A DNA stretch of 64,000 nt from Halichondria panicea (taxonomy: Eukaryota > Porifera > Demospongiae > Suberitida > Halichondriidae), in the NCBI RefSeq assembly GCF_963675165.1, contig NC_087377.1:13760198-13824197 (forward strand). Reading direction: 5' to 3'. Position numbers and translations under genes: made by a program. Below, one piece after another: positions 340 to 51,523 of the stretch. A model generated the notes under the pieces. The model was not told the DNA's origin. It worked only from the letters and a program-made list of their open reading frames with translations, and made no database searches. Position 1 is the first letter of the stretch; the number at the start of each line of letters is the position of its first letter.

Positions 340-1968
340 CTAGTGCTTGGTGTAGTGCTTAGAAGGGAGTGGAGGTGCCGGGGGTTCGTTGTTAGGGGCT
401 GGTTTAGGGGGACGGGCTGGAACTATCTCAATAGTTCTGCATGGGAAAAGTGATCAAGATAAGAACCGTTAACACTACTAGATGATACAAGGGTAAAGTT
501 ATGATGACAGAACCACAGTTTATAATTATTTGTATAGCTCAAACATGGGAGACACGTACATGTATTCGATGCATCTGTGGACCCATTATCCCAACCTATA
601 CCAACCTATACGGACACCTCACCCTTTCGTTGGATTAAGGTTTACCTATAAAAACTTCGATTGCTGACTACCATACAATTGCATTGGTAGTTATACATGG
701 AAGCATGTTTTGTGGCACTCAACTTACAGTTTAGGAGGACGTGAGGGAGGCAGTGCCTTTGGTAATCCGAGACCGTCATCTGTCATGGTGGGGGATCGAG
801 AGGGGAGGGGAGGGGGAGGGGCTCGGTCGTACTTGTACACGGTACTTGGTACTGCCTTCATGTTCAACTCCACTGGGAGGCGACCTGTGAGTGAGTGTGA
901 CGAGTGGGGTAGTGTGGGTCATAATCATACTGTAGGGTGTATTTTGCTCCAGCAATTAAACTACTTGGATCGAGTTAACAGCTGTTAAACATACAGAGAC
1001 TCATTTTGGTAAACAGGGAAGCATAATTATTATGTTGTATACCACAGTTCTCAATTTCTCAATGAATGGAGAGAAGAGCAAGAATGTGGCTTGTTGTAAA
1101 GTGAAGCAGTGTTGTGTCTAGTGGTTGGGTAGTTAGGACAAAACACAATACTGCCCACACAATCAAGGGAAGCCAGGTGTGGGCCCTTGGGATAAGTGGA
1201 TACATATGTACATACATGATGTACATGTACAAGTACATGATTATAATGATAATGACCTTTTGTGATGGCAGTTTAGAGATCGAGCTAAGGTAATTTGAGT
1301 ACAACATTGTGACTGTCAATTAGAAAGGCTATTAGGGTTGCTTAAACATAGGTATAGCAATAACAACAACATGCTTTTCCAACAACATACAGTCGATTGT
1401 GAGTATTAAACATGTGTACGGACACAATGACAGACCACTATTACAGCAACACACATGAAACCACTACTTACCAGTATTATAGATATTCAGGAGTTCTTGC
1501 GACAGTTGCTCTTCCCCGATATTATGGAGATAACCAGCCAGCTCCCTCCAGGTTGGTCGCCCAGAACAGTTTCTCATCCACTGGTCGATCACCTCCGTTA
1601 GACATCCACTATGGTTGACTCCACATGAATCCTCGATCTAAAATGAGATATTTGAGTGAGTTACACCAACAATAGATCGGCACTTCTATTTGTACGATTA
1701 AGGTGTGACCAGACAATGGGTTAATTATAGACTGTTATTGTTATCAACTTTCATCATTTAAAAAAACAACACATTCCTTCACACCACGTACAGAACAATG
1801 ATTGACCCTTGATAGATTTAAGATTAGTAAGTACCTGCTCAATCATTGTTTCAGGCACCCTCATAGTCTCAGCCAGCTCCCTCCATTTGTGTTCCATTGA
1901 CCTGATCTGGACCAAGGCCTGGTCAATGTCCAGGAGCTTGTCCACATCAGGCAGGGCTGGGGCTGAGG

Positions 1969-2011
<43 letters not shown>

Positions 2012-5000
2012 TGTGACCTCGCTAATGCAAAGAGGCCACCTAAAACATAATTATTTCAGTAGGCTATGCTTCAGGGCAGCACTACAATTAGGCCACCTGT
2101 CACTGGAGGAAGCAATGAATGCTATACACTTTCTAACACCCAAGCCATGAATACATTGAGGGGATTCTACAGCTATCTTGCTGCCAAACTCATGATCAGT
2201 GTGTGAATCCACATGACAAGGTTAGCTCTCAATCACCCATTGCCTTAAAAGGTAAGGGTAAAACCAGAAGCTGTAAACTTGACAGGTTATCAAAGAACCA
2301 CTTCCACTGGTTCCAGAAGAAGTGTGCTGTAATGTTGTCTGTTCCTGGTAGTTTTGATTAGGATGCTTCTATCTTGTCTTTCCAAGTGTTGTTTTGCCTG
2401 TCTAACAGGAACAGACAACAACACTATATACAGCTGAATCGGAAAAAATGGGATCTCGCTAGATATCTCTAACTACCAGGAACGGATGCACTATGGTACA
2501 GTCTAACATATCTGGTATCAAAATCGTTAACAATGACTCAAAGCCTATCACACAAACAGACTCACCTGTTGGGCTGGTGGGGAGGGTGGCTGCTTTGGCT
2601 TGCTTCCTACTGGTGGCAGCAACATCCACAGTGGCGTAGGTCACCTGATGTTGGTCCACTGTGGTAGTTGTGTTGCCTTTCTTGTGGGGATGGCTGGAGC
2701 TAAGGGCAGCATAGACCACTGGCTCCACTGTAGCCTGGGGTGTCGGGAAACAAACAGAGTCAAGAATATCTTTCAGACAGATCTGTGAAGCAGGATATTG
2801 CGGTTATTGGTGTACATGCACCACAGGACAAATCTACACAAACCGTTTCTTTATGAACCAAAGATGATTTGAAAGTAGTAGTTATAATGCCCACATATAC
2901 AGACACCCATTAGTCATGTTGACTGCCACTGAACACACTCACCACATTGCCGAGCTGACCATAGCCGGGTAGCCTCTGAGCATCCTGTACAAAGAGTGGA
3001 GTTAAATGATTGAGTGAAGACAAGTATGATATACCTGTCCAGTGTTCATCACACTGTATCCCTCTTCATTGACGGCTATTTTCTGTGTGACATAACAAGA
3101 ACAGTCATCATTGCAGCATCATAATGTGTGTGCTGACGAGGTTGTGCTATACCTTATCACTGTTGATGGTGACCTCATCATAGGTGAGGGAAGCAGGATT
3201 CTGTGAAGCAGGATTCTGTGAGGTGATGCAATAAGCTAATGCACAAAATACATCAATACTCACCAAGTCATGAGTGATCCTATTGTAACCTTCTTCATCT
3301 GCTGCTGGAGGCTGATACTGTGTTACAAACAGGTAGTGAGTAAAAAAATCATACCATATAGAGATAACTAACCTTCTTTGAGCTATTCTTAGGCCCGTCA
3401 TGTCGTAGTTCACTGTATTCCCCCTGTAATAAAATGTACAGTTCATAACAATACACAGAGACTACACACGTTACGCTTACATCAAACTTATGATCCATTT
3501 CTATACTATCATTTGATTTGAGCCTCACACTCTCTGTGAAAAAACACACTAATAGTTATGTTTTAGTTTTAGTTTGTCAACTCACCTTTTCTCCTTCTCC
3601 TGAGAACCACCAACAGCAGCACTATCACAATTATAAGCGACACAACAACTAGAGCACCTACAACACCTCCAGCTACGAAGTTTGCAACAGTTGGAGCTGT
3701 CACACCTATTAGGCCATTTTACAGCATACAGGCATTGAAACACAAATGAACTTACACTCCAACTGAGCCGGGTCAGGATCCCAGAGACCAGAATTGTTAC
3801 AAGTGACAGTCGCTGCACCCACCAGTGAGAAGTCAGGATCACATTGGAAGGTAATGACTGAGCCCTCGGTTAGGTTAGTGTGCGTGTTGAGTAAAGTTCC
3901 ATTGAGGGGAGGGGCAGGCAGGACACAGGAAACTGGGTACCCGAGATAATGGATTAACGTAGATAAAGAAGCCACTTACTAGGTTCAATTCTGCAAATAA
4001 TTTCCCCCGGGATCCTGTCCCACTTTCCTGTAGCTAGACAGGTGACAATAATTATGCCCTCAGGGAACAGCCCATCGTTACACTGAATGGTCACATGAGT
4101 ACCGGGTATAGTTGGTACTAAATGACCACTGATGGTGCCATTCCTTGGTGAGGGTAGTAGTGAAGCCATGCAGTTCATTGGAGGGGCTGGAGATAAAGAT
4201 AAACTTCCATACAACCAAGAACTTAACTCACGAGTTGTGGGAGGAGGTGTGGTTGGTGATCCACTACAATCAAAAGTCTCAGGGTCTGGACTCCACATCA
4301 GTTCATCATCACATGTCACCATTGTAACAGGATTTTCATACCCAGAGACACATTGGATGATTACTGTTGATTCTTGTAATCTGTTGGAGACTGGTCCAAA
4401 AGCTACATTCGTGAGATTGGTCAGTACAGGACAGCCGCCTGGGTAAGAGGGAATTGTTAGCATGTGATAATGTTGTCAACTCACCAATCCTAAAGTTGTA
4501 CTCAGCAGTTGTACTGTTCCCAGCACAGTTGGTAGCCACAACACTGACAGTGTAGTCCACATTGTATTGAGCAGTCACAGTGACAGAGGTGGATGTGAGG
4601 ACAGTAGCAGAGAGCTGGGCCGGAGGTAAGACGGTCACTGTGTAGGTGAGGTCATCTCTACCACCAGTCTCAGTAGGAGGGTCCCACAGTACAGATACAC
4701 TAACTGCATCGGCTGAGCTGCTCAGAATGGAGTGTCTGATGGAAGGTGGTCTTGGTAGATCTATATGTAACTTATTGAATACAGACAATAGACGAGGCAC
4801 TAACTGCAACTCACCAACCAATCGGATTGTTGAAGATCCTATAGTGATTAGAGTAGGCACAATACCCACACAGGACACAGTGGTCCCATTCTCTGCTGTT
4901 CTTGACAGAGTAGACGTTAAAGTAGTGTCGTTGAATGCAATCAGTGTCACAGTGTAACCTGATACAACATTGGCTACATTGAGACCAGAGGTGGAGAGGA

Positions 5001-5315
5001 CAGTGATTGGACGAGTTGTATCTGACGGTTCCCATCTCAAGAAATCTCCAGGAGCAGTGCAGGTGAAAGTGACTGTTTCCATTGGACATGGTCTCTCCAC
5101 ACTCACTGAATATTGGGCTGAAGAAATACAAATAATTATGTGATTATAATAGAGATTAGACTAGCTGTTTTATGTATACTATACTGTAAGTACTAGAAGG
5201 CACTGAGATATGAAAACAAAGTCGAGAAAAGCTTTTTGGATTCTATATGCTTAGTAGACTTACCATAGACAACACTATGGAAACACAATAAAACCATGAA
5301 CAAGGTTAAAAACAT
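340..5315 (-). CDS. Receptor A: Ig-FN3-sushi x3-TM, ITIM-like tail, death domain, proline-rich end
   Basis: Spliced model, 18 exons (minus): 5315-5264, 5117-4815, 4760-4485, 4438-4232, 4186-3980, 3932-3756, 3705-3586, 3533-3481, 3423-3373, 3317-3264, 3200-3153 (or from 3215), 3082-3035, 2984-2943, 2734-2566, 1968-1835, 1637-1472, 884-728, 436-340. All introns are GT-AG; the sum is 2361 nt, giving 786 aa. Order: 17-residue hydrophobic signal exon; Ig-like exon (TFTC...TVSC); FN3 exon; three sushi exons; TM (ALVVVSLIIVIVLLLVV) followed by RRRRK; tyrosine motifs YSEL, YNRI, LTYDEV, YSVM, YGQL, VVYAAL and VTYATV; a death domain split over two exons (HKWRELAETM...TWRELAGYL); then PPPPLP and PARPPKP motifs. 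Domain names follow cysteine and tryptophan spacing. ITIM, PI3K-type YxxM and death-domain meanings are family knowledge; partners are unknown. No lesion seen. Paralogue of A' at 44592. Confidence 0.85.
2943..3423 (-). other. Cassette of phase-0 mini-exons, one tyrosine motif each (gene A)
   Basis: Five consecutive exons of 51, 54, 48, 48 and 42 nt begin and end in phase 0. Each encodes a single tyrosine motif: YSEL, YNRI, LTYDEV, YSVM and YGQL. Any of them could be skipped without shifting the frame. The same five-exon set, also phase 0, is in A' at 46573-47024. Confidence 0.8.
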
Positions 5316-5547
5316 CTTTAACTTTAAGATCGACTCTCGTTTTGAGCTAAATTTGCAGATCATTAATTAAAAAGCGAAAACTCGGCCATGACGCGGGCCA
5401 CGCCTCTTCTAGGTAAATATGATGGGCGTGACATCCTGCATGCTGGAGTAGTATTTTTATACCTGGGCCTTTTTATAGTACCGTACCGCCGCGCCCAGAT
5501 TAGCTAGCTAGCTAGAGCCCCAAGTACCATACCAAAGCAAAGCGGAT
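5316..5547. promoter_or_regulatory. Short bidirectional promoter between A and B
   Basis: Only 232 bp separate the divergent start codons of A (minus) and B (plus). The spacer holds TATA-like T-rich stretches near 5452-5478 and a short GCTA repeat near 5504-5514. The same spacer is present, inverted, between B' and A' but is split there by a 1.57-kb transposon. A shared promoter is inferred from the spacing; no start site can be seen. Confidence 0.5.
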
Positions 5548-8500
5548 ATGTCTAGATCTAGATCTTTGTTGGTAAGTGGTCCGCGTTTTCTATACGGAGT
5601 TGATATTATTTTAAATGATCATTTTCCACTCCCAGATTTCATTGACTGGATCAGTGGTACTTTTAGGATGGTGCTTCATTGTTGATGTGTCTAGTCAAGA
5701 GATCACCTTAGTATCGTCTCTTCAGGCAACAAACAGGACATATGTTTGTCCTGATGAGATTGCTACGTATGTTTGCAGAGGTGGTGGAAATGCGATTGAC
5801 CTATTTGCACCACCATTTATTTCTTCAAACAATCCTATATCATACGTGTTAGGAGACGTTCTAGGAACTGAATTTGTCACAGGCCCAATTTTGACCAACC
5901 TTACTTCGACGGCAGATTCCATAATGATAGCGAACATTATAGTGCAAAATTCTACTTTGCAACAGTTTTCAATTAACTGTGCAGTACGCTCACCTCTCCA
6001 AGAAATTGAAACCCTGTACAGACTTTCAGGTAACAGTCCACACTCGGTACTTATAAGGCTAGTGATAAAAAGGAGTAGTAGAATCAGTCTTTCCGCTATT
6101 ATTATTATTCCGCTATTTTATTATTATGTACCGTAATTGATGTAATTACAGCACAAACGTGAGCATCAGCATAATTTTAGGTCCTAAAAGAAGCACATAC
6201 CGTTGCTGGAATTATTTTTTCTGGCGCTTATAAAAAGTGCTTTTCTAACCCATATCTATATACCATAATTTAGGCACCACTTGGGCTGAACGTAATTTTT
6301 TTTAGTAGAAGTGGAATTATTTAGCAGAAAGGGGGGCAACCTAGCTGGGCTTTGCCCAAAAATTTTTGGTGAAAGCCACACCCCTTTAATTAGTCGCGGT
6401 TGAATTTCACTTCCTGTCATCAGCAATCAGTGGAGGCTAGATTCTAGAAGTTTATTGTGAGTTTAAGCAGAAATTAAAGAGTAATCTCTGGTTTAATGAT
6501 TCTTGGTCTTGCCACATGGACCCAATATTGCATACTTGTGGCCAAAATTAATGTGAGCATGCAATCACACCCACTCATTCTCAGATTCTGCAATGCCCCA
6601 CCCATATTTGTTTGCACATGCGTGTAACTGTTATTACCCAGAGACACAAAGAACTTAGCTAGCTGAGACAGATTGGTAAGTACAGATCAGAAAAAGGGGA
6701 GGCATTTGCCCCCTTTGCCACCCCCTGGCTACACCACTGATCAATATAGCTTTTCGAGGGTATAAATGTTTATCTTTTCGCTGATTAAGCATGCATGTAC
6801 CGCGAACATTTATACCCACGAATTTAATGTCGCATGCACGCATGCTGCAGAAAGGCTTTGAACGGTCATTCCACAAAAGTTTATACCCTCGAAATATACC
6901 CGCTGCACGGTCTAGTCACACTAATTCTACTCTCTTGTCTCCAATTTAGAGCGTCCTTTGGATGTGAGTTCTCAAGAAATAAATCCAAATCCCGCCGATA
7001 GTACTGTGCAAGTTACTTGGATGCAAGCACTTGGAAATTATGATCTTAGTTATTATACGGTGCAGCTTTTTGAGAATAATGCTGCAACTCGGTCGACTGT
7101 TGTTCCTGCAGAAAGCAACCTAATAGCAGTATTCTCTGTACCTCCAAATGTGCAAGTCCGTGCAAGGATAACAGTGACCTCTAAATGTGCCCAGACAAGC
7201 ACTGGAGTTTCCACCAGCAACATAACTACCACAAGTGTAACTCAATTGCAAGGTAAATTATTGTAAAGTGATATCATTCATATAGCATAACTAGAGTGCA
7301 AACCCCTCGGGTTGTGACATGATTATAACAATGTAGTAAGTAACAATGTAGTAAGTATGACTGAGCTGTCTAGCACACAGCAACTCGCTTGATGTAAAAG
7401 AATATGAGCTACAATGATGGTGCATGGTACACATGCACTGTGGACTAGAGGAGGTACGACACGTGTGCCTCGATTAGGCTGATTACCTCTGCAATAACGT
7501 TGAGCGTGGGCGGATAATCGAGGCATAATTACGCCCACGATCAAGGTCAAGGTTATTGCAGAGGCAATTGGCTAGCCTAATCGTACCTTCTCTGACTGGA
7601 CTATGCTCACAGTGAAGCTGGAGTCTTGAGAACATGACCATATTTCTCAAGACTCCAGCTTCACTGTGAGCATAGAAGCGGTATCCAGAGTCAGCAAAGA
7701 AGCCTCCCGAGACAACAAACCAGTCACAATTCTATTTTTTTTTGCTTCAGTGACCCTTTTCCATTGTTCCTGGTACGGGATCATTTCAGCTGTAAATACG
7801 TAGGCCTGCCTCGAATAAAGGACGGGTGTATAATAGCTGCTAACGTGTAAAGTTCAAGCTTCTTCGACAACGAAGCTTTAACAACAGTATTAAAACTAAT
7901 AACTTGTTGTGTGAAGGCTATCCATGCTGTAAACGCAGACCTATGGCATCCAGGTGAGTAGATTCATGTACGTGTCACAAACAGACAAACTAGAGCACTG
8001 AATTTAGTGCAAACCCTCGGCTGGTGCCATGATTATAAGATTTTAAGAGTATAGTGCATGCATGTAGCAACTCAAGAGCAATAAAACTAAACCAGACTGG
8101 AGAGGCATGCATGCTGAGAACAGTAGTACATGAGGCATGCATCGTGGAAACCTGGCCATGGAGTCTTAGAGAATATGGCTCCTGCCAGGCTGCTGCATAG
8201 ATAAAAGAGCTACTGGGAGTATTATAGGATCGATCCAGAGTCAGTCAACAACCAGTCACAATTAGAGTTTTCTACTTTAGTGACCCTATTCCATTGTTCC
8301 TGGTACAGGATCACTTCAGCTTCAAATACGTAGTCTATCACGTGTAGCTAAGCTGCCAATGTGCAAGTTCAAGCTTCTTAGCTTTTGCTCGACAAAGAAG
8401 CTTTAATATCAAAATCTGCCACTATTTATATTGTTGTATGAAGGCTATCCATGCTGTAAACGCAGCGCTGTGGTACCCATGTGAGTAGATGTACCTGTGA

Positions 8501-10563: not shown

Positions 10564-10621
<58 letters not shown>

Positions 10622-15398: not shown

Positions 15399-15548
15399 GA
15401 AGCTGGCCCACAGCAAAATGTACCAATATCAACAACTGGAGAGTACTAGATATATACACAGGCGCGCATCATTATAATTATGCAACTATAATTATTATAT
15501 CAGTGCCCATAATTATTTTAATGCTTTAATTTGTATACGTATATAAAG

Positions 15549-16841
15549 CCCAATATTCAGTGAGTGTGGAGAGACCATGTCCAATGGAAACAGTCACTTT
15601 CACCTGCACTGCTCCTGGAGATTCTTTGAGATGGGTACCATCAGATGTTTCTCGCATCACTATCCGTCCTACAACCTCTGGTCTCAATGTACCACTATGC
15701 CTCAACCAGGTTACACTGTGACACTGATTGCATTCAATGACACTACACTAACATCTACTCTGTCAAGAACAGCAGAGAATGGGATCACTGTGTCCTATGT
15801 GGGGGGATTTGTGAACTCACTGCTTACTCTGACCACTATAGGATCTTCAATGATCCAATTGGTTGGTGAGTTGCAGTTAGTGCCTCGTCTATTGTCTGTA
15901 TATGCACTAAGTTACATAATTAGATCCACCAGGACCACCGTCTACCATCAGACACTCCACTCTGAGTAGCTCAGCCGATGAAGTTAGTGTATCTTGTATC
16001 TGTACAGTGGGACCCTCCTACTGAGACTGGTGGTAGAGATGACCTCACCTACACAGTGACCATCTCACCTCCGGCCCAGCTCTCTGCTACTGTCCTCACA
16101 TCAACCTCCGTCACTGTGACTGCTCAATACAATGTGGACTACACTGTCAGTGTTGTGGCTATCAACTGTGCTGGGAACAGTACAACAGCTGGGTACAACT
16201 TTAGGATTGATGAGTTTTATTATTTTTTACACACAGTGTCGACTTCCTCTCAGGTGGCTGTCCTGTGTTGACTAACCTTGTGAATGGATCATTTGCACCA
16301 CTCTCCAGCGGATCAACAGTAACTATAAAGTGTGATGCTGGATATGTGTCTGCATGCTATTGCTATGGTGACACGCGAGGGCAGTACATTGATATGGAGT
16401 CCAGAACCTGAGGCTATTGAGTGTACATCACTAACCACAACTCGTGAGTTGAGTTAGTACGTCTTAGTTGTATTGATAATTATAGTGTTTATCCTCTCTG
16501 TGTTAATTATTCATTACACAGTCACTCCAATAAACTGCACGGCTCCACTATCCCCACCACTTGAACCACCTACAGCTGCTCCTTGTAATTGTGCCAGCCT
16601 ATCTGCAGCTGTCTCCATCAGTGTGGTTGTCATGGCAATTGTATTCACAATAATAGGATTATTTGTGGGACTCTTGATAATGTATTTGTTCATGCATAAG
16701 AAGAATGTGTACTCCCCGTCACCTAAAGAGCAAGCTAACGTAGGACCCACTACACCAGCTGGTCCTGTTTATGAGGAGGTGTCACCCAAAGAGGAGATTG
16801 AACTGAACACTAACCAGGCGTATGGACCAGTAGGACTGTGA
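15549..16841 (+). pseudogene. Receptor C, short-tailed paralogue, decayed
   Basis: Homologous to D in order: Ig exon (15549-15865), FN3 exon, first sushi exon, then the TM/tail exon ending at 16841. Lesions relative to D: a 2-bp insertion just before the GYTVTLI segment of the Ig exon; the second Ig cysteine changed to tyrosine (TVSYVG); a 5-bp insertion in the FN3 exon near 16000; frameshift and loss of a cysteine codon in the sushi exon near 16350; and deletion of most of the second sushi exon, whose first bases are joined to the tail exon at about 16560. No signal-peptide exon is seen upstream. The TM and the YEEV...YGPV tail remain open. Tail-to-tail with the HEAT relic at 18260-20075. 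Confidence 0.8.
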
Positions 16842-18240: not shown

Positions 18241-18259
18241 TCAAAGACTCACATTGGAT

Positions 18260-20687: not shown

Positions 20688-22295
20688 ATGACACTAATAG
20701 AGATAAAGCTCATTAGAGTTCTTCTGATTTGCTTTCTGGCTGGCTTCAGCACTGGTAAGACTGACTATTCAATTATAGATTTCCTTACATTGCTGCACGT
20801 TTCATAAAGCACAATATTCAGTGAGTGTGGAGAGACCATGTCCAATGGAAACAGTCACTTTCACCTGCACTGCTCCTGGAGATTTCTTGAGATGGGAACC
20901 GTCAGATGCAACTCGTCCAATCGCTGTCCGCTCCACCTCTGATCTCAATGTAGCCAGTGTTGTATCAGGTTACACTGTGACACTGATTGCATTCAACGAC
21001 ACTACTTTAACGTCTACTCTGTCAAGAACAGCAAAGAATGGGACCACTGTGTCCTGTGTGGGTATTGTGCCTACTCTAACCACTATAGGATCTTCAACAA
21101 TCCGATTGGTTGGTGAGTTGCAGTTAGTATCTCGTCTATTGTCTGTATTCAATAAGTTACATATAGATCTACCAAGACCACCTTCCATCAGACACTCCAT
21201 TCTGAGCAGCTCATCCAATGAAGTCAGTGTATCTGTACAGTGGGACCCTCCTACTGAGACTGGTGGTAGAGATGACCTCACCTACACAGTTACCATCTCA
21301 CCTCCGGCCCAGCTCTCTGCTACTGTCCTCACATCCACCTCTGTCACTGTGACTGCTCAATACAATGTGGACTACACTGTCAGTGTTGTGGCTACTAATT
21401 GTGCTGGGAACAGTACGGCAGCTGAGTACAACTTTAGGATTGGTGAGTTTTATTTTTGACACACAGTGTCAACTCCTCCTCAGGCAATTACTGTCCTGTG
21501 TTGACCAACCCCATGAATGGAGTGTTTGGACCAACCACCAACAGTTTGCCAGGATCCACGGTAACCATCCAGTGTGATGCTGGGTATGTGTCTACTGTTA
21601 CAATGGTGACATGTGAGGGTACACTCATGTGGAGTCCAGACCCTGAGGCTATTGAGTGTACATCACTAACCACACCTACTCCCACAACTCGTGAGTTAAG
21701 CTCGTGGCTGTATGGATAATTAATGCAATATTTATTCAATATTAATTCTTCACACAGTCCCCCCTCCAATGAATTGCACAGCTTCACTACCCCCACCACG
21801 AAATGGCACCATCAGTGGTCATTCAGTACCAGCTATTCCCGGTACGCGAGTGGCCTTTCAGTGTGACTATGGGCTGTTCCCTGAGGGCATAATGACTGCC
21901 ACCTGTCTAGCTACAGGAGAGTGGGACAGGAACATGGGGGAGATTGTCTGCAGAGGCAAGTGTATTCATACACTTGCTTGTAATAATACTTTTCTCTTAA
22001 ACCACCTACAGCTGCTCTTTGTAATTGCGCCAGCCTATCTGATGGGAGTCGATTTGATGCAGCTGTCTCCATCAGTGTGGTTGTCACGACAGCTCTATTC
22101 ACAGTCATTGGATTGTTGATGGGACTCTTGATAATGTATTTGCTCATGCGTAAGAAGGCGGCGTACTCCCTGTCAGCTGAAGGTCAAGCTAATGTAGGAC
22201 CCACTGTACCAGCTGGTCCTGTTTATGAGGAGGTGTCACCTAAAGAGGAGATTGAACTGAACACTAACCAGGCGTATGGACCAGTAGGACTGTGA
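20688..22295 (+). CDS. Receptor D: Ig-FN3-sushi x2-TM, short YEEV/YGPV tail
   Basis: Six exons: 20688-20754, 20810-21112, 21167-21442, 21484-21690, 21758-21955, 22012-22295; 1335 nt in one frame, 444 aa. The signal peptide (KLIRVLLICFLAGFST) is on exon 1. Ig (TFTC...TVSC), FN3 (VQWDPPTETGGRDDLTYTV) and two sushi exons follow in phase 1. The fifth intron uses a GC donor (AG|GCAAGT). TM: ALFTVIGLLMGLLIMYLLM, then RKK and a 50-residue tail with YSLS, VYEEV and AYGPV. VYEEV resembles the pYEEI ligand preferred by Src-family SH2 domains (family knowledge). There is no death domain. Ectodomain nearly identical in places to A and A', so D is their short-tailed partner. No lesion seen. Confidence 0.85.
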
Positions 22296-24366: not shown

Positions 24367-25680
24367 CCCAATATTCAGTGAGTGTGGAGAGACTATGTCC
24401 AATGGAAACAGTCACTTTCACTTGCACTGCTCCTGGAGATTCCTCGAGATGGGTGTCTTCAGATAGTACTAGCATCAGTATCCTCTCCACCTCTGATCTC
24501 AACGTACCCATTGTTGTATCAGGTTACACTGTGACACTGATTGCAGTTGATAACACTGCTTTGACATCTACTCTGTCAAGAACAGCAGAGAATGGGATCA
24601 CTGTGTCTTGTGTGGACCCACTGCCTACTTTATATACTATAGGATCTTCAACAATCCAATTGGTTGGTGAGTTGCAGTTAGTGTCTCGTCTATTGTCTGT
24701 ATATATACAATAAATTACATATAGATCCACCAGGATCATCGTCTACCATCAGACACTCCATTCTGAGTAGCTCAGCAGATGAAGTCAGTGTATCTGTGCA
24801 GTGGGACCCTCCTACTGAGACTGGTGGCAGAGATGACCTCACCTACACAGTGATCATCTCACCTCTGGCCCAGCTCTCTGCTACTGTCCTCACATCCACC
24901 TCTGTCACTGTGACTGCTCAATACGATGTGGACTACACTGTCAGTGTTGTGGCTACCAACTGTGCTGGGAACAGTACAACTGCTGACTTACAACTATAGG
25001 ATTGGTGAGTATTATTATTATGACACAAATTGTCAACTTCTTCTCAGGTAAATGTCCTGTGTTGACCAACCCCGTGAATGGAGCCTTTGGACCAGTCTCT
25101 ATAGCAGATTACCAGGATCCACAGTAACCATCCAGTGTGACACTGGATATATGTCTGCTGTTACTATAGGGTTACATGTGAAGATACACTGATGTGGAGT
25201 CCAGACCCTGAGGCTATTGAGTGTACATCACTAACCACACCTACTCCCACAACTCGTGAGTTAAGCTCTTGGTTGTGAAATAAATATGTTAATCATTACA
25301 CAGCTCCTCCAATAAACTGCACAGCTTCACTACCCTCACCATGGAATGGTATTATCAGTGATCATTCAGTACCAGCTATTCCCGGTACACAAGTTACCCT
25401 CCAGTGTGACGATTCGTGGACTTGCCATGGAGACAGGAATGAAGAACCTCGGCAGTAGCGAGCGGGTGATCCTATATATCACTGGGACTTTTGATTCACT
25501 GCTACATGATCATCTCTAGGTGGCAGTGCTGCTACCTTTGGAGGAGGTGTTGTTGGAGGTGTTGTTGGCGGTCTGTGTGTGCATGGTGGTACTGCACTAT
25601 TGTTGTAGAGCTCTGCATAGTTTCACCAAGAAAAGAGTTTATAGGTACATGTACATTTCGTGGTGTTCTCTGACTCCAGT
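24367..25680 (+). pseudogene. Receptor E, decayed paralogue lacking its signal-peptide exon
   Basis: The Ig exon 24367-24666 is fully open. The sequence before it matches intron 1 of D, but exon 1 is gone. The FN3 exon (24725-25004) has a 1-bp insertion near 24985 that brings a TAG into frame. The first sushi exon (about 25048-25255) has small insertions near 25098 and 25165. The second sushi exon (about 25303-25412) breaks off after its second cysteine region. A glycine/valine-rich stretch at about 25520-25600 resembles the TM exons of A and A' but has no open tail. Confidence 0.75.
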
Positions 25681-33290: not shown

Positions 33291-33293
33291 GTT

Positions 33294-33512
33294 TCACAGT
33301 CCTAATGGTCCATACGCCTGGTTTGTATTGAGTTCAATCTCTTCTTTGGGAGACACCTCCTCATAAACAGGACCAGCTGGTACAGTGGGTCCTACATTAG
33401 CTTGTCCATCAGCTGCCGGGGAGTACATTGCCTTTTTACGCATGAACAAATACATTATCAAGAGTCCTATCAGCAATCCAATGATTGGAAATCGAACTGC
33501 TGTGACAACCAC
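33294..33512 (-). pseudogene. Extra TM/tail exon downstream of F
   Basis: A second TM/tail open frame (FPIIGLLIGLLIMYLFM, RKK, VYEEV, AYGPL) ends in TGA at 33294. The 5' part of the exon, including an in-phase acceptor, has been replaced by unrelated sequence: the only nearby AG (TACTATCAG) would join in the wrong phase for gene F. It looks like the 3' remnant of another short-tailed receptor, though the open frame allows it to be an alternative last exon. Confidence 0.55.
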
Positions 33513-33727
33513 ACTGATAGTACCAGAGTGTCCACCCCAGCAGTATGCCTATATACGGATGGCCCGGGTCACATTGCCGTTATGCTTTCGCCTGTTTTCT
33601 TGTTTCCACACTTTTTGGTGAGGCCAATTCTATACCAACTTTCCACAGTAATAATAAATCATACAGAAGTTATATTTTAACCGTTAGTTATGCCTGTGGG
33701 AATCACTGTATTATAGTCTTATAAGTT

Positions 33728-36000
33728 TTACAGTCCCACTGGTCCATACGCCTGGTTAGTGTTGAGTTCAATCTCCTCTTTGGGTGACACCTCCTCATAA
33801 ACAGGACCAGCTGGCTGTGCAGTGGGTCTTACGTTAGCTTGCTCTTTAGCTGCAGGGGAGTACACTGCCGTCTTTTTACGAGAGCAAAGGTGCATCACTA
33901 AGAGTCCAGCGAGAAACCCAATGACTGTGAAAGCAACTGCAGTGACAACCACACTGATAGAAAGAATCTCTCTGGTAAATAGGATGAGTGACTGAACTGT
34001 GGGTGGGAGGAGGAAAATTAAAAGCAAACAGTGAAATCCATTCAACAATGGTAGGGCATGCATCACAAGAGACTATATAGCTTAATTGTCATGATCATAG
34101 AAGGTTCTTGTATCAGCTAGTTACTACAGTATAATATACTCATGTGCATGTACGTACAACTTCTAGATATACACTCCAACAGAGCTGGGTCAGGATCCCA
34201 GAGACCGGAGTTGTTACAAGTGGCAGTCGCTGCACCCACCAGTGAGAACCCAGGATCACATTGAAAGGCAATGACTGAACCCTCAATTAGGTTAGTGTTC
34301 TGAGAGTTGGTGTTGAGTAAAGCTCCATTGAGTGGAGGGGCAGGTAAGGCACAAGAAACTGGAATATGATCGTAGTAAAAATGGAAAGTTACGCTCATTT
34401 GAATTTTTAGAAATTCATGTAAATTGAGTAAACCATAAACCAGGTAACTTACTAGACTCATTTCTGCAGACGATCTTCCCCGGGATCTTGTCCCACTCTC
34501 CTGTAGCTAGACAGGTGACAATCATAATGCCCTCAGGGAACAGTCCATCGTCACACTGGAAGGTCACACGTGTACCGGGAATAGCTGGTATTGAATGACC
34601 ACTGATGGTGCCATTCTGGGGTGGCGATAGTGGAACCATGCACTTCATTGGAGCTGCATGTGAGGGGAAAAATAATATTAAGTTTCAAGAACTCAACTCA
34701 CGAGTTGTGGGAGGGAGTGTGGGTAGTGATGTACACTCAATAGCCTCAGGGTTGGGACTCCACATTAGTGTACCCTGACATGTCACCATAGCAACAGGAG
34801 ATACATACCCAACGTTACATTGGATGGTTACTATGGATCCTGGCAATCTGCTTGAAACAGGTCCAAACGCTCCATTCATGGGGTCGATTAACACAGGACA
34901 ATTGCCTGAGAGGGAATCAGCACTGTATGTCAAAATAATATGAACGATTGTTGACTCACTGATCCTAAAGTTGTAATCAGCTGTTGTACTGCTCCCAGCA
35001 CAGTTGCTGGCCACAACACTGATAGTGTAGTCCACATTGTATTGAGCAGTCACAGTGACAGAGGTGGATGTGAGGACAGTAGCAGAGAGCTGGGCCGGAG
35101 GTGAGATGGTCACTGTGTAGGTGAGGTCATCTCTACCACCAGTCTCAGTAGGAGGGCCCCACTGTACAGACACACTGACTTCATGGGCTGAGCTGCTTGA
35201 AGGGGAGTGTTTAATGGTGGACGGTGGTCCTGGTGGTCCTGGTGGATCTACGTAACAAGGAGCACATAAAAAATACGTCTATCTACGGGGATCACATTTC
35301 GTAAACACCGCATTTCCATATATGCGCGATATGCAGACTCACTATAAGTGGTTAAATCACTATACATGCACGTGTTATACGCAATACAGCGCTGCGGTTT
35401 GCAAGTCACTTATATAGTTACTTCCATAAAGGAATCACCGGCAATTACGAAACATGAACCTCAAGTATACGTTGAAGTTAGATGCTCCTTCTCTTATTTT
35501 ATGGTCTCCTGAGGTATAACTTAGTGTATATACACTATTATACAGACAATAGATGAGACACTAACTGCAACTCACCAACCAATCGGATTGTTGAAGATCC
35601 TATAGTGATTAGAGTAGGCACAATACCCACACAGGACACAGTGGTCCCATTCTCTGCTGTTCTTGACAGAGTAGACGTTAAAGTAGTGTTGTTGAATGCA
35701 ATCAGTGTCACAGTGTAACCTGATACAACATTGGCTACATTGAGATCAGAGGTGGAGCGAACAGCGATTGTGCGAGTTGCATCTGACGGTTCCCATCTCA
35801 AGGAATCTCCAGCAGCAGTGCAGGTGAAAGTGACTGTTTCCATTGGACATGGTCTCTCCACACTCACTGAATATTGTGCTTTATGAAGCGTGCAGCATTG
35901 TAAGGAAATCTATAATTGAATACTCAGTCTTACCAGTGCTGAAGCCAGCCAGAACGCAAATCAGAAGAACTCTAATGAGCTTTATCTCTATTAGTGTCAT
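33728..36000 (-). CDS. Receptor F: Ig-FN3-sushi x3-TM, short YEEV/YGPV tail
   Basis: Seven exons (minus): 36000-35934, 35878-35576, 35247-34960, 34905-34702, 34653-34453, 34358-34158, 33996-33728; 1533 nt in one frame, 510 aa. The signal exon is nearly identical to that of D (KLIRVLLICVLAGFST). Ig, FN3 (with an extra GPP-coding 9-bp repeat near its start) and three sushi exons follow. For the last sushi exon the donor GTACGT at 34157 is chosen because it keeps the final cysteine; a GTATAT donor 15 nt earlier would lose it. TM (AFTVIGFLAGLLVMHLC), then RKK, YSPA, VYEEV and AYGPV. Stop TAA. Differs from D by having the third sushi module. No lesion seen. Confidence 0.8.
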
Positions 36001-36340: not shown

Positions 36341-36344
36341 TTTT

Positions 36345-41216: not shown

Positions 41217-41339
41217 ACCCTTTGGCACATGTATAATTATAATCTCATTTTAGTGCTGCTATGATGTTTTGTTTCTTTGCTGCTATACTTTTGTGGATGT
41301 GTTTTAAGCTGTGATCAATTTGAATGGTGAATGCATGTT

Positions 41340-42809: not shown

Positions 42810-42894
42810 ATCCGCTTTGCTTTGGTATGGTACTTGGGCTCTAGCTAGCTAGCTAATCTGGGCGCGGCGGTACGGTACGGTACTATAAAAAGGC

Positions 42895-44461: not shown

Positions 44462-44591
44462 TATAAAAACACTACTCCAGCATGCAGGATGTCACGCCCA
44501 TCATATTTACCTAGAAGAGGCGTGGCCCGCGTCATGGCCGAGTTTTCGCTTTTTAATTAATGATCTGCAAATTTAGCTCTTAAAGTTAAAG

Positions 44592-47500
44592 ATGTTTTTA
44601 ACCTTGTTCATGGTTTTATTGTGTTTCCATAGTGTTGTCTATGGTAAGTCTACTAAGCATATAGAATCCAAAAAGCTTTTCTCGACTTTGTTTTCATATC
44701 TCAGTGCCTTCTAGTACTTACAGTATAGTATACATAAAACAGCTAGTCTAATCTCTATTATAATCACATAATTATTTGTATTTCTTCAGCCCAATATTCA
44801 GTGAGTGTGGAGAGACCATGTCCAATGGAAACAGTCACTTTCACCTGCACTGCTGCTGGAGATTTCTTGAGATGGGAACCGTCAGATGTGACTCGCACGA
44901 TCGCTGTCCGCTCCACCTCTGATCTCAATGTAGCCAGTGTTGTATCAGGTTACACTGTGACACTGATTGCATTCAACGACACTACTTTAACGTCTACTCT
45001 GTCAAGAACAGCAAAGAATGGGACCACTGTGTCCTGTGTGGGTATTGTGCCTACTCTAACCACTATAGGATCTTCAACAATCCGATTGGTTGGTGAGTTG
45101 CAGTTAGTGTCTCGTCTATTGTCTGTATACAATAAGTTACATAGATCTACCAGGACCACCTTCCACCATCAGACACTCCATTCCGAGCAGCTCATCCATT
45201 GAAGTCAGTGTATCTGTACAGTGGAACCCTCCTACTGAGACTAGTGGTAGAGATGACCTCACATACACAGTGACCATCTCAACTCCAGCCCAGCTCTCTG
45301 ATACTGTCCTCACATCCACCTCTATCACTGTGATTGCTCAATACAATGTGAACTACACTGTCAGTGTTGTGGCTACCAATTGTGCTGGGAACAGTACAAC
45401 CGCTGAGTACAGCTTTACAATTGGTGAGTCGACATCGTCTTTAAACATGCAGTAAACTACATTATTATACTGTTTCTGATTCCTTTGCAGGAGGCTGTCC
45501 TGTGTTGACCAACCCCATGAATGGAGCCTTTGGATCAGTCTCCAGCAGATTACTAGGATCCACAGTAACCATCCAGTGTGATGTTGGGTATGTATCTGTT
45601 GTTACTAGTGTGACATGTGAGGGTTCACTGATGTGGAGTCCAGACCCTGAGGCTATTGAGTGTACATCACTACCCACGCTCTCTCCCACAACTCGTGAGT
45701 TAAGCTCTTGGTTATACAAAAAAATTAATTATTTTTTCACCTCACAGCTCCAATGAACTGCACAGCTTCACTATCCTCACCACAGAATGGCACTATCAGT
45801 AATCATTCAGTACCAGCTACTCCTGGTACAAAAGTGACCTTTCAGTGTGACGATGGACTGTTCCCTGAGGGCATAATGACTGCCACCTGTCTAGCTACAG
45901 GAGGGTGGGACAAGATCCCGGCGGAGATCGTCTGCAGAAATGAGTCTAGTAATTTAATTAACCTTTTTGCTTTGAGCTCAAAGCTTAAATTTATTCGTTC
46001 CATTTTACTACAATTGTATATTCCTTGTACTCAGTTTCGTGTGTCCTGCCTGTCCCTCCACTCAATGGAACATTACTCAACACCAACTCTCTGAACACTA
46101 ACCCAGTCGAGGGCTCGGTCATTACCTTCCAGTGTGATCCTGGGTTCTCACCGGTGGGTGCAGTGACTGTCACTTGTAACAACTCTGGTCTCTGGGATCC
46201 TGACCCGACTCTGTTGGAGTGTAAGTTCTGTGTATGCATGCATGTACATGTAACAGTGATGTATAATGGCCTATAGGTGTGGCAGCTCCAACTGTTACTG
46301 GTGGGAATGATGCTGCTATAGCTGGAGGTGTTGCTGGTGGCATAATGGTCGCTTTACTTGTCATTTTGTTGATAATAATTATCTTATTGGTGGTTCTCAG
46401 AAAGAAAAAAGGTGAGTTGACTAATTCTCTGGTACAAAAACTGATAGTTGTTTTTCTCAGAGATTGTGAGGCATAAATCAAATGACAGTATAGAAATGGA
46501 TCATAAGTTTGATGTAAGCGTAACGTGTGTAGTCTCTGTGTATTGTTATGAGCCATGCCTTTTATTATACAGGTGGAATACAGTGCACTACGACACAATG
46601 GGCCTACAAAGAAGGTTAGTTTTCTTGACTCGTTTTTCACTCACTAACTCTTTAATGCAGTACCAGCCTCCAGCAGCGGACGAAGAAGGTTACAATAGAA
46701 TCACTCATAATGTGGTGAGTATCAACGTATTGTGTGCATTAGCTAAGTATTGCATCACCTCACAGAATCCTGCTTCCCTCACCTATGATGAGGTCACCAT
46801 CAATAGTGATAAGGTGTATAGTATAACCTCATCAGCACACACATTATGATGCTGCAATGATGACCATTCTTATAATTAATACAGAAAATAGCGGTCAATG
46901 AAGAGGGATACAGCGTGATGGACACTGGACAGGTATATGAAACTCGTCTTGACTTAATCATTTAACTCCACTGTTTGTATAGGGTGCTCAGAAGATGCCC
47001 GGCTATGGCCAGCTCGGCAATGTGGTGAGTGTGTGTGTGTGTGTGTACAGCCGTTAGTGAGACTATTGTGACTAATGGGTGTTGTTCGTTCAGTGGCATT
47101 ATAACTACTATTTTAAAGTTAAACAAATCATCTTGGTAACAAAGAAACTGTTTGTGTAGTGTTATTAGATGTGGCCTGTGTGGTGCATTAATATATACAT
47201 TGCTTTACTGCAATATCCTAGCTGCTTTGCATTGTACAGATCTGTAACAAAAACTGTACACTCTATAATTACAAGTAAGGCTATTCTTTACTCTTTCGTT
47301 TCCCGACACCCCAGGCAACAGTGGAGCCGGTAATCTATGCTGCCCTTAGCACTAGCCAACCCCGCAAGAAAGGGGCTGCCGCTGTGGACCATCATCAGGT
47401 GACCTACGCCACTGTGGATAGTGATGCTACCATGCAACAGGAAGCTAAGGCTGCCATCCTCCCAAGAGGTGAGTATGCTTGCGTAATTTTATGATTCATT

Positions 47501-50500
47501 GTTCATCATTGGACATGTGCACAGCAGCATAATTATATGTTATCTGCTGGTGTGTGTTTCACTTTGTGTGTCACTTTGTGTGTCTGTCTGTGTAGACTGC
47601 TATTAATTATAGCTGCTCAATAGTCAATGAGTTGTGATGGAAATTAGGTACCGTTCTAAAGAAGGAATAAACATTAGTGATCACCTAAACCCATATTCCA
47701 GTACAAGCACTTCTTTGTATTTAAATTGGTGGACTTGCGCAAATAATACTTCGTTCTCGAGTTGTACCTATTTAAAGCGCGATTGCAGTCTTTTCAGAAT
47801 ACTGCGTAGCAAAACTTGTCCATGAAGTGTTGCTACTCTACTTACTTGTTCTCTGCACTAGAACGCTAGCTATTGATAGCTGAAAGAGCGTTAAGCTTTG
47901 GCGCAGGCACCAGCACCCGTGGTGCTTTCATTTTGATAGATAATTGCATGCACAAAGAGTATGTTTATTTGTGTACTATGATGCGTCCGTTCCTGGTAGT
48001 TTTGATTTAGAAATATCTATAGTGATCGAGTCATGAGTTTTCCCATTTTGAAATCTAGTGTTGTCTGTTCCTGGTAGTGATGTCCCTAGTGAGTTATGAG
48101 TTCTTCCCATATTGTATGATTAAGAAGAAGTGTGCTTAAATATTTATATGTTGTCTGTTCCTGGTAGTTTTGATTAGGAACTTAGGAAGTTCCTATCTTG
48201 TCTTCCCTAGTGTTTGTTTTGTCTGTCTGTTCCTGGGTGTTGTACATCACCTCATTTCATCAGCTGATTAGGAGACAGTGGGAAAAACACAAGTGCATGA
48301 TCCTTGATAAGCTGTCAGCTGTATGGCTTCTGGTTTTACCCTTATGGTTGGAGTGTTGTGAGTTGTACATGTAGCTTTCATTGGTTCTGGCTTGTACTGC
48401 CCTTTGCAGCTCACTTGGAAGTGTAGGGCAAATGATCAATTGCAAAAAACCACTTGAGATAAGTGTAACAGTTTACATAAGTAAACCACAATACTATATA
48501 GACCAGATCTTTACGTTTTGTTGTTGTAGTTTTTCACGCTATTTGTTGTAGCTCACATAAGCTTACGTGAAGTTTTGGCAAACAGTATTACTGTAAAATG
48601 CAAAAAACCACTTTCAATGTAACAGTTTACAGCTAAACCACAACTTGGCCAAATCTCTATCTACAAGTACTCAGTTTGGGCTGTAGGAGTAGCTTGATTA
48701 CGAAATAAACTGCCTGTTCGTCTAGCTATTGTTGACTGAGAAACAGCCTGCTGCTGAACCAGTCTCCAATTCTCTGCCACAATGACATAGTACGCCACTT
48801 AACTCCTCTTGATAAGGATTAGTTTTTCATGGTTACCCAACCAGTAGTTTATGCTGAATACTGTACTAGGTATAGCTAGAGATCTATATATCCACATAAA
48901 GATCTGAATCCAACATTTTAACTTTGTCCCTTGTTCTATAGTATTGTGGTTTACTTGTGTAAACTGTTACACTTATCTCAAGTGGTGTTTTGCAATTTAC
49001 TATTTGCTCCAAACTTCCAAGTGAGCTGCAAAGGGCAGTAGTGCTGCCCTGAAGCTGTAGCATTGCCTACTGCTGTTTTAACAGTTAGTGCAGATACTAT
49101 TTTAATAATTATCATTTATAGTTTTCATTAGTGTTCAGCTTATGAGTTTTTGTTTCATTCTCACTCTCACTCTCTCTCTCTCAACACACACACACACTCT
49201 CACACACACACACACACTCACACACACACACACTCACACACACTTACACACGCACACGCACACGCACACACACAGCCTCAGCCCCGGCTGATGTGGACAA
49301 GCTCCTGGACATTGACCAGGCCTTGGTGCAGATCAGGTCAATGAAACACAAATGGAGGGAGCTGGCTGAGACTATGAGGGTGCCAGAAACAATGATTGAA
49401 CAGGTACGTACTCGAATCCATCAAGGGTCAAGTCAGGAGTACATGACATGCACATGTACAGTACATGTAGTGTACATACATACATGACTACGTGGTGTGA
49501 AGGAATGTGTTGTTTACATAGATAAAGTAGAAGTGCAATCTATTGTTGATCTGCTACTCACTCATTTTAGATCGAGGATTCATGTGGAATCAACCATGGT
49601 GGCTGTCTAACGGAGGTGATCGACCAGTGGATGAGGAGTTGCTCTGGGCGACCAACCTGGAGGGAGCTGGCTGATCATCTCCATAATATTGGAGAGGAGC
49701 AATTGTCACAAGAACTCATGACTATCTACGATACTGGTGAGTAGTGGTTTCACGTGTGTTGCTTGAAGTGTGACCCTGCTACATGTATATGAAGTCATAA
49801 TGATTATTGTTTGCTGTCTGATAGATTATGGTTTGCTCCTGACAGTAACTAGCCTCGACCCCTGGCCGATCCGTCTCCAATTGAACGCTAGGTCGCCTAC
49901 TAGGCCTGGTATTGATTGTATTTGGGCGTGATCTGGGCGTGGTTTTTTAATACATAAAACAAATTGACTCGTGGTACAACAAAAAATGAATCCTCCAACA
50001 GTGGTCTTCAACAACAGCCTCTGGGGCAGTATACAGCAGGAAATACTTCCCAAAAGACACTTCTTTGGCAGTGGCAACCAAATCTTTGTCAATTCCTTTA
50101 TTGCTACTGCACTGAGGATGGCAGCAGAAACACCTCTATTGTTTAAGACTCCTGATCTGGTCAATCATGAGTCTCATGATGAGAGATACAAGGGGAGAGA
50201 CAATTAACAAGAACAACACTTTTGTCAACAGGAGGAGCCTTGGTCCTACCTAGCTTGTAGTCCATTAAAAAGGGTAGCAACTGATATAGCAGAGAGACTT
50301 GCCATACCCCGTTGGGAACCAGATAAACACGTCCCTTCCCTCAAACAGGAGCTTGAGAGCCTGCATGGGCCTGTTCTGCCATGAGAGTGAGGCCATCTTG
50401 CTTCAAACAAGACAACGAGTTGCATGCCATAGCTAGCTAGCTATAAATTGAGAACATGACACGGAGCTAAATTACTGTAACTTTTACGGGAGTAAAATGC

Positions 50501-50966
50501 CTCTACGTACACCTTTAGTATTACAGAAAAAAAGCAGGAAACAAAATGTAAAGAATCACTGCTTTCGTTTCCGGTTCCTGCCACGCCCAGATACAATCAA
50601 TACCAGGCCGTATTTTTCAACTTCGTTCTATTAAAAAAAAATCGGCTTGGGACCGAGGCTATAGTAATGCATGAGAATATTCATAGACAGTAACATAATA
50701 GCTTTCACTAATAAAATAATGTTGTTGTATTAATTAGAGAGCTGTATATGGTGTGTGTATGGTGTGCTTAGAACAGAGATCTTTGCTAAAGGATTATAGT
50801 TCTACAACAAGGTTTATTTACTCCATGCATACTGGCTCTAACTACAATTTAAAAATGACATACATGTAGTGACACACACATACACACACACACACACACT
50901 CACACTCACACACACTCACACTCACACACACTCACACTCACACACACTCACACTCACACACACACA

Positions 50967-51015
<49 letters not shown>

Positions 51016-51523
51016 ACACACTCACAGGTCGTCTCCCAGTGGAGTTGAACATGAAGGCAGTACCAAGTACCGTGTACAAGTACGACCGAGCCCCTCCCCC
51101 TCCCCTCCCCTCTCGAGCACCCACAACGACAGATGACGACCCCGGACTACCAAAGCTTCCCTCACGTCCTCCTAAAGCGTAAGTTGATTGAATGCACAAA
51201 CATTCTCCCATGTAACTTACCACTACAATAATTATTACAAAGTTGTTAATTGTGGGCAAACCTTAATCCAACGAAGGGATGGTGGTGTCAGTAGGTTAGG
51301 TTAATATCATTGTGCATCAAGTACACTCCCGTGTCGAGTGCTAGCTACAACTATATAATGTGCATCAAACAACACACTTTTAATTAGCTTAGCTACTTAA
51401 ACATTATTCCTTCCCCTATACAGAGCTGGTGCGGTAATGGTTCCAGCCCGTCCCCCTAAACCAGCCCATAACAATGAACCTCCGGTACCTGCACGCCCGT
51501 CCAAGCAATATGCGAAGCATTAG
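44592..51523 (+). CDS. Receptor A': Ig-FN3-sushi x3-TM, ITIM-like tail, death domain, proline-rich end
   Basis: Eighteen exons: 44592-44643, 44790-45092, 45145-45423, 45491-45694, 45748-45948, 46035-46220, 46277-46411, 46461-46513, 46573-46614, 46661-46714, 46766-46813, 46885-46932, 46983-47024, 47315-47468, 49276-49403, 49571-49736, 51028-51178, 51424-51523; 2346 nt, 781 aa, one frame. Signal MFLTLFMVLLCFHSVVY; Ig; FN3; three sushi; TM (GGIMVALLVILLIIIILLVVL) then RKKK. Tail: VEYSAL, YNRI, LTYDEV, YSVM, YGQL, VIYAAL and VTYATV; death domain (HKWRELAETM...CLTEVIDQWM...TWRELADHL); PPPPLP, PARPPKP and PVPARP. VEYSAL, LTYDEV, VIYAAL and VTYATV fit the ITIM consensus; YSVM fits the PI3K YxxM. Exon 5 has a weak donor (GTAATT). 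Paralogue of A; Ig exon closest to D. Function inferred: signalling receptor, possibly recognition. Confidence 0.85.
46573..47024 (+). other. Cassette of phase-0 mini-exons (gene A')
   Basis: Exons of 42, 54, 48, 48 and 42 nt, all phase 0-0, each with one tyrosine motif: VEYSAL, YNRI, LTYDEV, YSVM, YGQL. Introns of 46-71 bp separate them. Same layout as in A. Confidence 0.8.
48389..49040. repeat. MITE with about 100-bp inverted ends in A' intron 14
   Basis: 48389-48492 (ACTGCCCTTTGCAGCTCACT...AAACCACAATACT) is complemented by about 48940-49040. The interior is AT-rich and noncoding. A has no such insertion in the matching intron. Confidence 0.75.
49165..49275. repeat. (CA)n tract at the acceptor of A' exon 15
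   Basis: A CT/CA-rich microsatellite runs without a break into the CACAG acceptor at 49275. The same exon of A has a (GT)n/(CA)n tract (1969-2000) in the same place, so the arrangement predates the duplication. Confidence 0.85.
49850..50661. mobile_element. Element with helicase fragment in A' intron 16
   Basis: Ends TAGCCTCGACCCCTGG / ...TTGGGACCGAGGCTA resemble those of the 30568 element. Internally, about 50265-50400 on minus reads QALKLLFEGRDVFIWFPTGY then GKSLCYI, a RecQ-like Walker A segment, truncated after it by a stop. Possible decayed target duplication (ACAGTAAC/ATAGTAAT). Absent from the matching intron of A. Confidence 0.65.
50875..51027. repeat. CACACT minisatellite at the acceptor of A' exon 17
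   Basis: Repeats of ACTCACACTCACACACACT type followed by (CA)n lead directly into the CACAG acceptor at 51027. In A the same acceptor (885) has only a short CACTCAC remnant. Confidence 0.85.

Follow-up and report, generated by a model that had tools for sequence, protein, structure and literature searches.

Two receptor genes with ITIM-type tails and a death domain, members of a very large gene cluster in the sponge Halichondria panicea

The window analysed here, a stretch of 64,000 nucleotides of the Halichondria panicea genome (contig NC_087377.1, below C1), holds two receptor genes, A and A'. Gene A' (44592..51523, plus strand) was rebuilt exon by exon; it has 18 exons, all introns are GT-AG, and the exons join into one open frame of 781 aa. 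The public protein P0001 (LOC135348048 isoform X2, 780 aa, Halichondria panicea) differs from A' by a single Val, which lies at a tandem donor; this and all other public protein models cited are predictions. Gene A (340..5315, minus strand) was rebuilt similarly, giving 18 exons, GT-AG introns and one open frame of 791 aa. An earlier note, made from the letters of this DNA alone, had described intact 18-exon genes of 781 and 786 codons at these places. Exon rebuild and P0001 both agree with it for A'; for gene A, the single frame and its position were confirmed, the length being 786 aa with the second copy of a duplicated acceptor in exon 11 and 791 aa otherwise. In both genes, exons 2-8 start in phase 1 and exons 9-14 in phase 0.

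A and A' encode the same order of modules: an Ig-like domain, an FN3 domain, three sushi domains, a transmembrane segment, a tail with motifs of the immunoreceptor tyrosine-based inhibitory motif (ITIM) type, a two-exon death domain and an end with PxxP motifs. In A', a hydrophobic start, read as a putative signal peptide, lies on exon 1 (44592..44643, plus strand as for all A' exons), followed by the Ig-like domain on exon 2 (44790..45092), FN3 on exon 3 (45145..45423), three sushi domains on exons 4-6 (45491..46220) and the transmembrane segment on exon 7 (46277..46411). Exons 8-14 (46461..47468) carry the tail with VEYSAL, YNRI, LTYDEV, YSVM, YGQL, VIYAAL and VTYATV; exons 15-16 (49276..49736) encode the death domain, and exons 17-18 (51028..51523) a proline-rich, SH3-ligand-like end. 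The death domain of gene A lies on its exons 15-16 (1472..1968, minus strand). Proline-rich PxxP ends, also listed in the earlier note, were found in both genes.

Of the composition given in that note, the architecture, the single frame, the tail motifs and the death domain stood. The sushi domains are clearly significant in A' (Pfam Sushi, 76.5 bits, three stretches). FN3 scored under the Pfam cut-off in A and A' and over it in P0015, the protein of neighbouring gene C (27.3 vs 25). No Pfam Ig family matched A or A' in the Pfam scan, and a profile of the Ig-like domain searched against PDB returned nothing significant (best CD3, E 0.18). The first domain was named Ig-like because C..W..C is conserved (9/9 aligned first domains) and because the predicted model of paralogue P0014 gives it nine strands, with a predicted local distance difference test score (pLDDT) of 77-93 by block; the model overall has a mean pLDDT of 60.5 and a predicted template modelling score of 0.38. 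Pfam scans of A, A' and the nine public death-tail proteins (A' included) contained no cysteine-rich TNFR repeats, sushi domains being present instead, and no ZU5 or thrombospondin domains.

For the death domain, whole proteins were scanned with Pfam Death (PF00531, curated cut-off 22.6 bits). A' (17.9 bits) and A (16.4 bits) scored under this cut-off, as did the whole proteins P0027 and P0028, and whole paralogues P0003 (23.0 bits) and P0004 (22.8 bits) passed it. The two-exon death domain of the earlier note also passed it when the A' domain was scanned alone (23.7 bits). All 11 aligned death domains matched PF00531 at E <= 0.01, and 9/9 public death-tail proteins (A' included) matched Death at E <= 0.1 (best 5.6e-5). 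A profile built from the 11 copies and searched against PDB returned 23 hits at E <= 1, of which the first 10 were FADD (E 7e-6 to 5e-5), followed by RIPK1 (E 0.005); a single-sequence search reached E 0.42 only. The model of P0014 shows five helices of at least 10 residues in the death region, at a modest block pLDDT of about 42-82. The death domain in the tails of A and A' is therefore taken as real, on profile evidence. A chance match was ruled out by the PDB profile, the Pfam scan of the domain alone and the nine public proteins; a separate neighbouring gene made of the death exons was likewise ruled out, since the nine public proteins join death and receptor exons. FADD- and RIPK1-class death domains are the closest solved relatives by profile; proteins of this class are cytosolic, whereas here the death domain is fused to a receptor tail.

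Tail motifs were scored as [ILVS]xYxx[ILV] in the cytoplasmic tail. Four were present in A' (VEYSAL, LTYDEV, VIYAAL, VTYATV) and three in A, where the first reads GEYSEL. Shuffled tails had a mean of 0.27-0.28 motifs; four were obtained for A' in 0/20,000 shuffles, and for three in A, P = 0.00185. The up to four ITIM-consensus motifs and one YxxM (YSVM) reported earlier are therefore present, at a density beyond that of shuffles. Before the death domain, both tails have eight tyrosines, seven of them in Yxx[ILVM]. The tails were compared in a single-death-tail set of A, A' and eight other public proteins, the truncated P0019 being left out. At least two ITIM-consensus motifs occur in 10/10 of these proteins, and none of 16 short-tail relatives has one in its last 60 residues (Fisher 1.9e-7, not corrected for relatedness). 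The last pair, V[IV]YA[AV]L and VTYATV, 23-26 residues apart, is kept in 10/10, LTYDEV or LTYNGV in 9/10 and YxxM in 8/10. VEYSAL is found in A' alone among 11 tails compared, the others having G at that position or lacking the exon. Between A and A', the ratio of nonsynonymous to synonymous divergence (dN/dS) was 0.14 for the death domain, 0.33 for the ITIM tail, 0.52 for the proline-rich end, 0.61 around the transmembrane segment, 0.65 for sushi, 1.1 for FN3 and 1.4 for Ig; the contrast of death with Ig plus FN3 was significant (Fisher 0.004). The earlier note's suggestion that ITIM-type signalling and a death adaptor are coupled through one protein is plausible, and gains support because the motifs are conserved in all ten death tails and the death exons are constrained.

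The earlier note overlooked that A and A' belong to a very large cluster of genes, in which a second type of tail also occurs. ITIM exon 14 had 19 genome matches and death exon 16 had 59. At 15 loci, all on C1 at 11.4-13.8 Mb, an exon 14 free of interruption and an exon 16 of nearly full length lie within 7 kb of each other; A and A' are two of these, and exon maps cover the other 13. In a sixteenth pair (C1, 12.595 and 12.601 Mb), exon 14 is broken by a stop and exon 16 is incomplete. Locus L040 has no receptor exon within the stretch mapped, and L043 has a stop codon in the FN3 exon. At L049 (C1:13512500-13522400), exons 16-18 can still be matched in the DNA, though its public protein P0019 stops after exon 15. 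The short-tail exon was present in at least 150 copies (the best 150 of 288 candidates), all on C1 at 11.25-14.93 Mb, and the FN3 exon in at least 150 (the best 150 of 265 candidates), 147 of them on C1; both totals are lower bounds of copies and not counts of intact genes. The cluster, in which A and A' lie among the short-tail copies, spans about 3.7 Mb.

Two further, more distantly related loci, L052 and L053 (C1, 14.43 and 14.51 Mb), read by eye, encode an Ig-like domain, an FN3-like domain, two sushi domains, a transmembrane segment and an ITIM-type motif joined to a death domain, this unit being present twice in tandem. The public protein P0029 (822 aa, with precomputed Pfam Death and Sushi) is 91% identical to the L052 tail and is apparently the product of the L053 gene. 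The combination of the two parts thus probably predates the A/A' group within the H. panicea genome. No relative of the tandem-death protein was found beyond H. panicea at E <= 10 (one protein returned; the 8000 candidates sharing most words scored). A search with the whole A' protein returned 23 H. panicea proteins and two others (one from pigeon), both with precomputed sushi domains (7998 candidates scored). No title or abstract start describing the cluster was found in a literature search whose range lay mostly outside subscription journals. Apart from the C1 cluster, a dense group of death-domain matches is present on C12 at 1.04-2.08 Mb (31 among the 148 matches listed).

Across the whole genome, the Ig exons most similar to that of A' are those of two short-tail genes in the window. 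Gene C (20812..22295, plus strand; public protein P0015) matches it at 97% in protein and 98.0% in DNA, and gene D (33294..35909, minus strand; a putative gene) at 94% and 97.0%; the next best are gene A and a copy at C1 11.74 Mb, at 91% each. Synonymous divergence (dS) of the A' Ig exon was 0.037 to both C and D, compared with 0.10 and 0.17 for FN3, 0.17-0.20 for sushi exons 4-5 of gene C and 0.16-0.28 for sushi exons 4-6 of gene D; exon 6 of A' vs C (dS 1.5) was set aside as having no true counterpart. The low dS of the Ig exon relative to sushi was significant (Fisher 0.004 and 0.0006, rounded counts), and the stretch similar to C and D starts two bases before exon 2. Traits of paired receptors found here are thus one cluster, a nearly identical binding domain on different tails and a conversion-like tract at the Ig exon. 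In its common form, the short tail carries YEEV and AYGPV/L 13 residues apart; judged by the positions (L/I) and spacing that define an immunoreceptor tyrosine-based activation motif (ITAM), it is not an ITAM, V replacing L/I. YEEV resembles pYEEI, the Src-family SH2 ligand. No charged residue was seen by eye in the short-tail transmembrane segments of P0005, P0008 and P0015. A longer variant of the short tail (31 matches) also occurs outside the main cluster, on C6 at 1.1 Mb and on C1 at 16.5 and 17.6 Mb, which suggests that tails of the YEEV...NEAYG type are a wider, general sponge tail module. An alternative short tail within A or A' was considered and rejected, no short-tail match lying inside either gene among the best 150 of 288 candidates.

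Gene A itself looks like a mosaic, with a front half like A' and a back half like distant loci, as judged from alignments; an assembly error at gene A is possible. Exons 1-13 lie at 2943..5315 and exons 14-18, with the last ITIM pair, the death domain and the proline-rich end, at 340..2734 (both minus strand). At the DNA level, exons 1-6 and 8-12 follow A' at 79-100%, with intron 1 at 100%. Exon 7 has diverged too far from A' to give a match of enough length, and the short exon 13 matches A' and loci L041-L046 alike. These six loci match few of exons 1-12 (9, 11 and 12), at 73-84%. From exon 14 onwards the closest relatives lie among them: exon 14 matches them at 91-94% vs 77% to A', exon 16 matches L041 at 99%, L044 at 98% and the other four at 83-87% vs 89% to A', and exons 17 and 18 match L042, L045 and L046 at 96-100% vs 90% and 84% to A'. 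Most of L041-L046 align with gene A along the greater part of the introns that separate exons 14 to 17, and A' does so along 27-173 bases; for the last intron, L042, L045 and L046 align along the greater part. The apparent breakpoint is near intron 13. The best downstream partners lie 0.15 Mb (L046), 0.76 Mb (L044), 1.6 Mb (L042) and 2.35 Mb (L041) away and differ between exons 14-18, so the downstream half appears to be a patchwork in its own right. The proteins gave the same picture: Ig plus FN3 of A is 87% identical to A' and 28-30% to P0027/P0028, and exon 14 plus the death domain is 96% identical to P0028 and 83% to A'. A groups with L041 and L044 (support 99/99) in the tail tree, where A' groups with L039 and L040 (99/98); the FN3 tree places A with A' and six others (100/100).

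From these data we lean, by a small degree, towards reading A and A' as type I receptors in a small death-domain branch of a large clustered family in Halichondria panicea, a judgement that covers this placement jointly with the whole mechanism set out here. The N-terminal Ig-like domain would bind a cell-surface or microbial ligand, Src-family kinases would phosphorylate the tail, and the conserved pair V[IV]YA[AV]L / VTYATV would dock a tandem-SH2 phosphatase of the SHP type. The distal death domain may recruit an adaptor of the FADD class, and the proline-rich ends may bind SH3 proteins. In this scheme, the output of the death adaptor would have to pass a threshold imposed by the phosphatase, and the ITIM-type tail would be inhibitory. 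Neighbouring short-tail receptors, whose Ig domain is almost identical, would send a signal that is opposite or otherwise different, forming a paired-receptor-like set, in which gene conversion may keep the binding exon alike and recombination may swap tails. Candidate partners are encoded in the genome. On C3, one strand carries, within 1.8 kb and in this order, matches to SH2, SH2 and protein tyrosine phosphatase domains; the leading SH2 match is partial with one stop flagged, the catalytic HCSAGIGRTG lies in an open frame, and the locus is read as a candidate SHP-type phosphatase. On C7, a partial DED match (1623085-1623231) is followed on the same strand, 0.4 kb apart, by a partial death match (1623677-1623814), making it a FADD-like candidate. 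Most of the tyrosine-phosphatase matches listed fall in a large cluster on C4, mainly at 0.04-2.6 Mb.

Several results pull the other way. Splice sites and homology are the basis for the model of gene A, which had no protein of its own in the public protein search results. Exon 15 of this gene does not discriminate between the two groups (95% to A', 94-97% to L041-L046), and approximately unbiased tests did not reject trees without a mosaic (p 0.20 and 0.21), so the mosaic case rests on exon and intron identities. P0019 ends after exon 15, and P0003, P0004, P0014, P0017 and P0026 lack some ectodomain or tail parts. The A' tail had no relative beyond H. panicea at E <= 0.01 (10 proteins found, 4421 candidates), so conservation of this tail is conservation within one species. 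As the short tail is not an ITAM, the activating partner stays putative. Finally, the excess of replacements in the Ig exon between A and A' was not significant (dN/dS not above 1, P = 1.0), and positive selection on this exon was set aside.

Three other explanations were weighed against receptors with an inhibitory arm. That the cluster senses microbes or works like a set of complement receptors and is not an allorecognition system, its shared Ig exons reflecting decoy/inhibitory pairing against microbes, is a serious possibility to which we give slightly less than an even chance; it concerns the ligand and overlaps with the explanation preferred above. The sushi domains fit it, and no result speaks directly against it. 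H. panicea genes responsive to lipopolysaccharide include ones with sushi, Ig or DEATH domains (PMC8242945), which may or may not be genes of the cluster; CEACAM paired receptors are read as pathogen-driven (PMC5112662). The aggregation factors, a different family, have been proposed for sponge allorecognition itself. A second possibility, rather unlikely in our view, is that A and A' are activating or dependence receptors like UNC5, in which the tyrosines are general SH2/PI3K docks, the death domain drives killing or NF-kB, and the ITIM look does not mean inhibition. UNC5C does combine Ig and death domains and recruits SHP2 once phosphorylated (PMC6080411), and of the eight tyrosines that precede the death domain in the sponge tails, seven lie in Yxx[ILVM], a pattern wider than the ITIM, with YxxM in 8/10 single-death tails. 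The Pfam scans, however, contained neither ZU5 nor thrombospondin domains. Moreover, the two ITIM-consensus motifs 23-26 residues apart in 10/10 tails suit a tandem-SH2 phosphatase, by the spacing rule for its docking on paired motifs.

It is very improbable that the tail exons are alternatively spliced such that ITIMs and death domain are mostly apart, or that the genes are decaying copies. The absence of exons 16-18 from P0019 and of several tail exons from P0004 and P0014 would fit this, as would stop codons in several death-exon copies elsewhere and in the FN3 exon of L043; nine public proteins, however, hold both parts, and the death exons have a dN/dS of 0.14. Going beyond the preferred reading, the 3.7-Mb cluster might be a sponge histocompatibility complex of at least 165 paired-receptor copies, with an inhibitory arm carrying its own death domain and with the binding and signalling halves shuffled by recombination across the cluster, in which loss of self-ligand would lift the phosphatase restraint and fire the death adaptor (a 'missing-self kill switch'); we consider this a long shot.

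Further features of the window were recorded. Gene B (15547..16841, plus strand) is a more diverged short-tail relative, and gene E (24369..25413, plus strand) an Ig-FN3-sushi relative with no tail exon nearby among the best 150 of 288 candidates. Gene D has two consecutive candidate transmembrane/short-tail exons (33294-34072), which could be alternative. Between short-tail genes, a weak and partial match to the death exon (19939-20019, minus strand, E 8e-4) is perhaps a decayed copy. An inverted repeat of 95.8% identity (5461-6815 and 42899-41510) includes the start of a divergent gene lying head-to-head with A (open reading frames at 5615, plus, and 42742, minus); A and this neighbour may share a two-way promoter. 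Downstream of the head-to-head gene, an open reading frame (6925-7263) weakly resembles Ig_ILCR1 (E 4e-5, under cut-off). A second inverted pair (53496-54360 and 56460-55597; 865 bases, 99.9% identical) points to a recent inverted duplication or a mobile element.

An ITIM tail fused to a death domain would be a compact circuit with inhibition and death signalling in one molecule, and the arrangement could serve recognition of self/non-self or of microbes in an early-branching animal. A paired-looking cluster with ITIM-type tails in a sponge would extend convergence to another early-branching phylum, and concrete genes are named here for testing.

In its proposed working, the cluster resembles vertebrate paired receptors, the fester co-receptors (FcoR) of Botryllus, Hydractinia Alr and, in part, UNC5; membership by descent is claimed in none. 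The earlier note, which named no vertebrate receptor with this exact order, missed a partly comparable one, UNC5, which shares an Ig ectodomain and a C-terminal death domain and recruits SHP2 by phosphotyrosine (PMC6080411); UNC5 has thrombospondin and ZU5 domains, which the Pfam scans did not find here, whereas sushi, FN3 and several ITIMs occur here. Death receptors of the TNF-receptor type differ in having cysteine-rich repeats where Pfam scans find sushi domains here. Hydractinia Alr proteins are not known to have a sushi or death domain. By description, the likeness to Alr lies in a large immunoglobulin superfamily and ITIM-type motifs, the Alr family having 41 members in the allorecognition complex, with ITIM/ITAM motifs (PMC11999971, PMC12065747). 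FcoR, again compared by description only, have an ectodomain of V-type Ig plus sushi, 53 loci and tails with ITIM and Yxx[ILV] motifs (PMC12065747); they differ in having two C2-type Ig domains, no FN3 is named for them, and the phrase 'death domain' is absent from that review. Vertebrate paired receptors (CEACAM, Siglec-11/16, CD300 and, by name, KIR and SIRP) differ in that here the death domain is on the ITIM arm, FN3 and sushi are present and the short tail is not an ITAM; common descent is not indicated. The likeness is one of clustered genes, a near-identical Ig exon of low dS on different tails, and an ITIM on one arm, and a near-identical binding exon of low divergence across different tails has been reported for paired receptors (PMC5112662).

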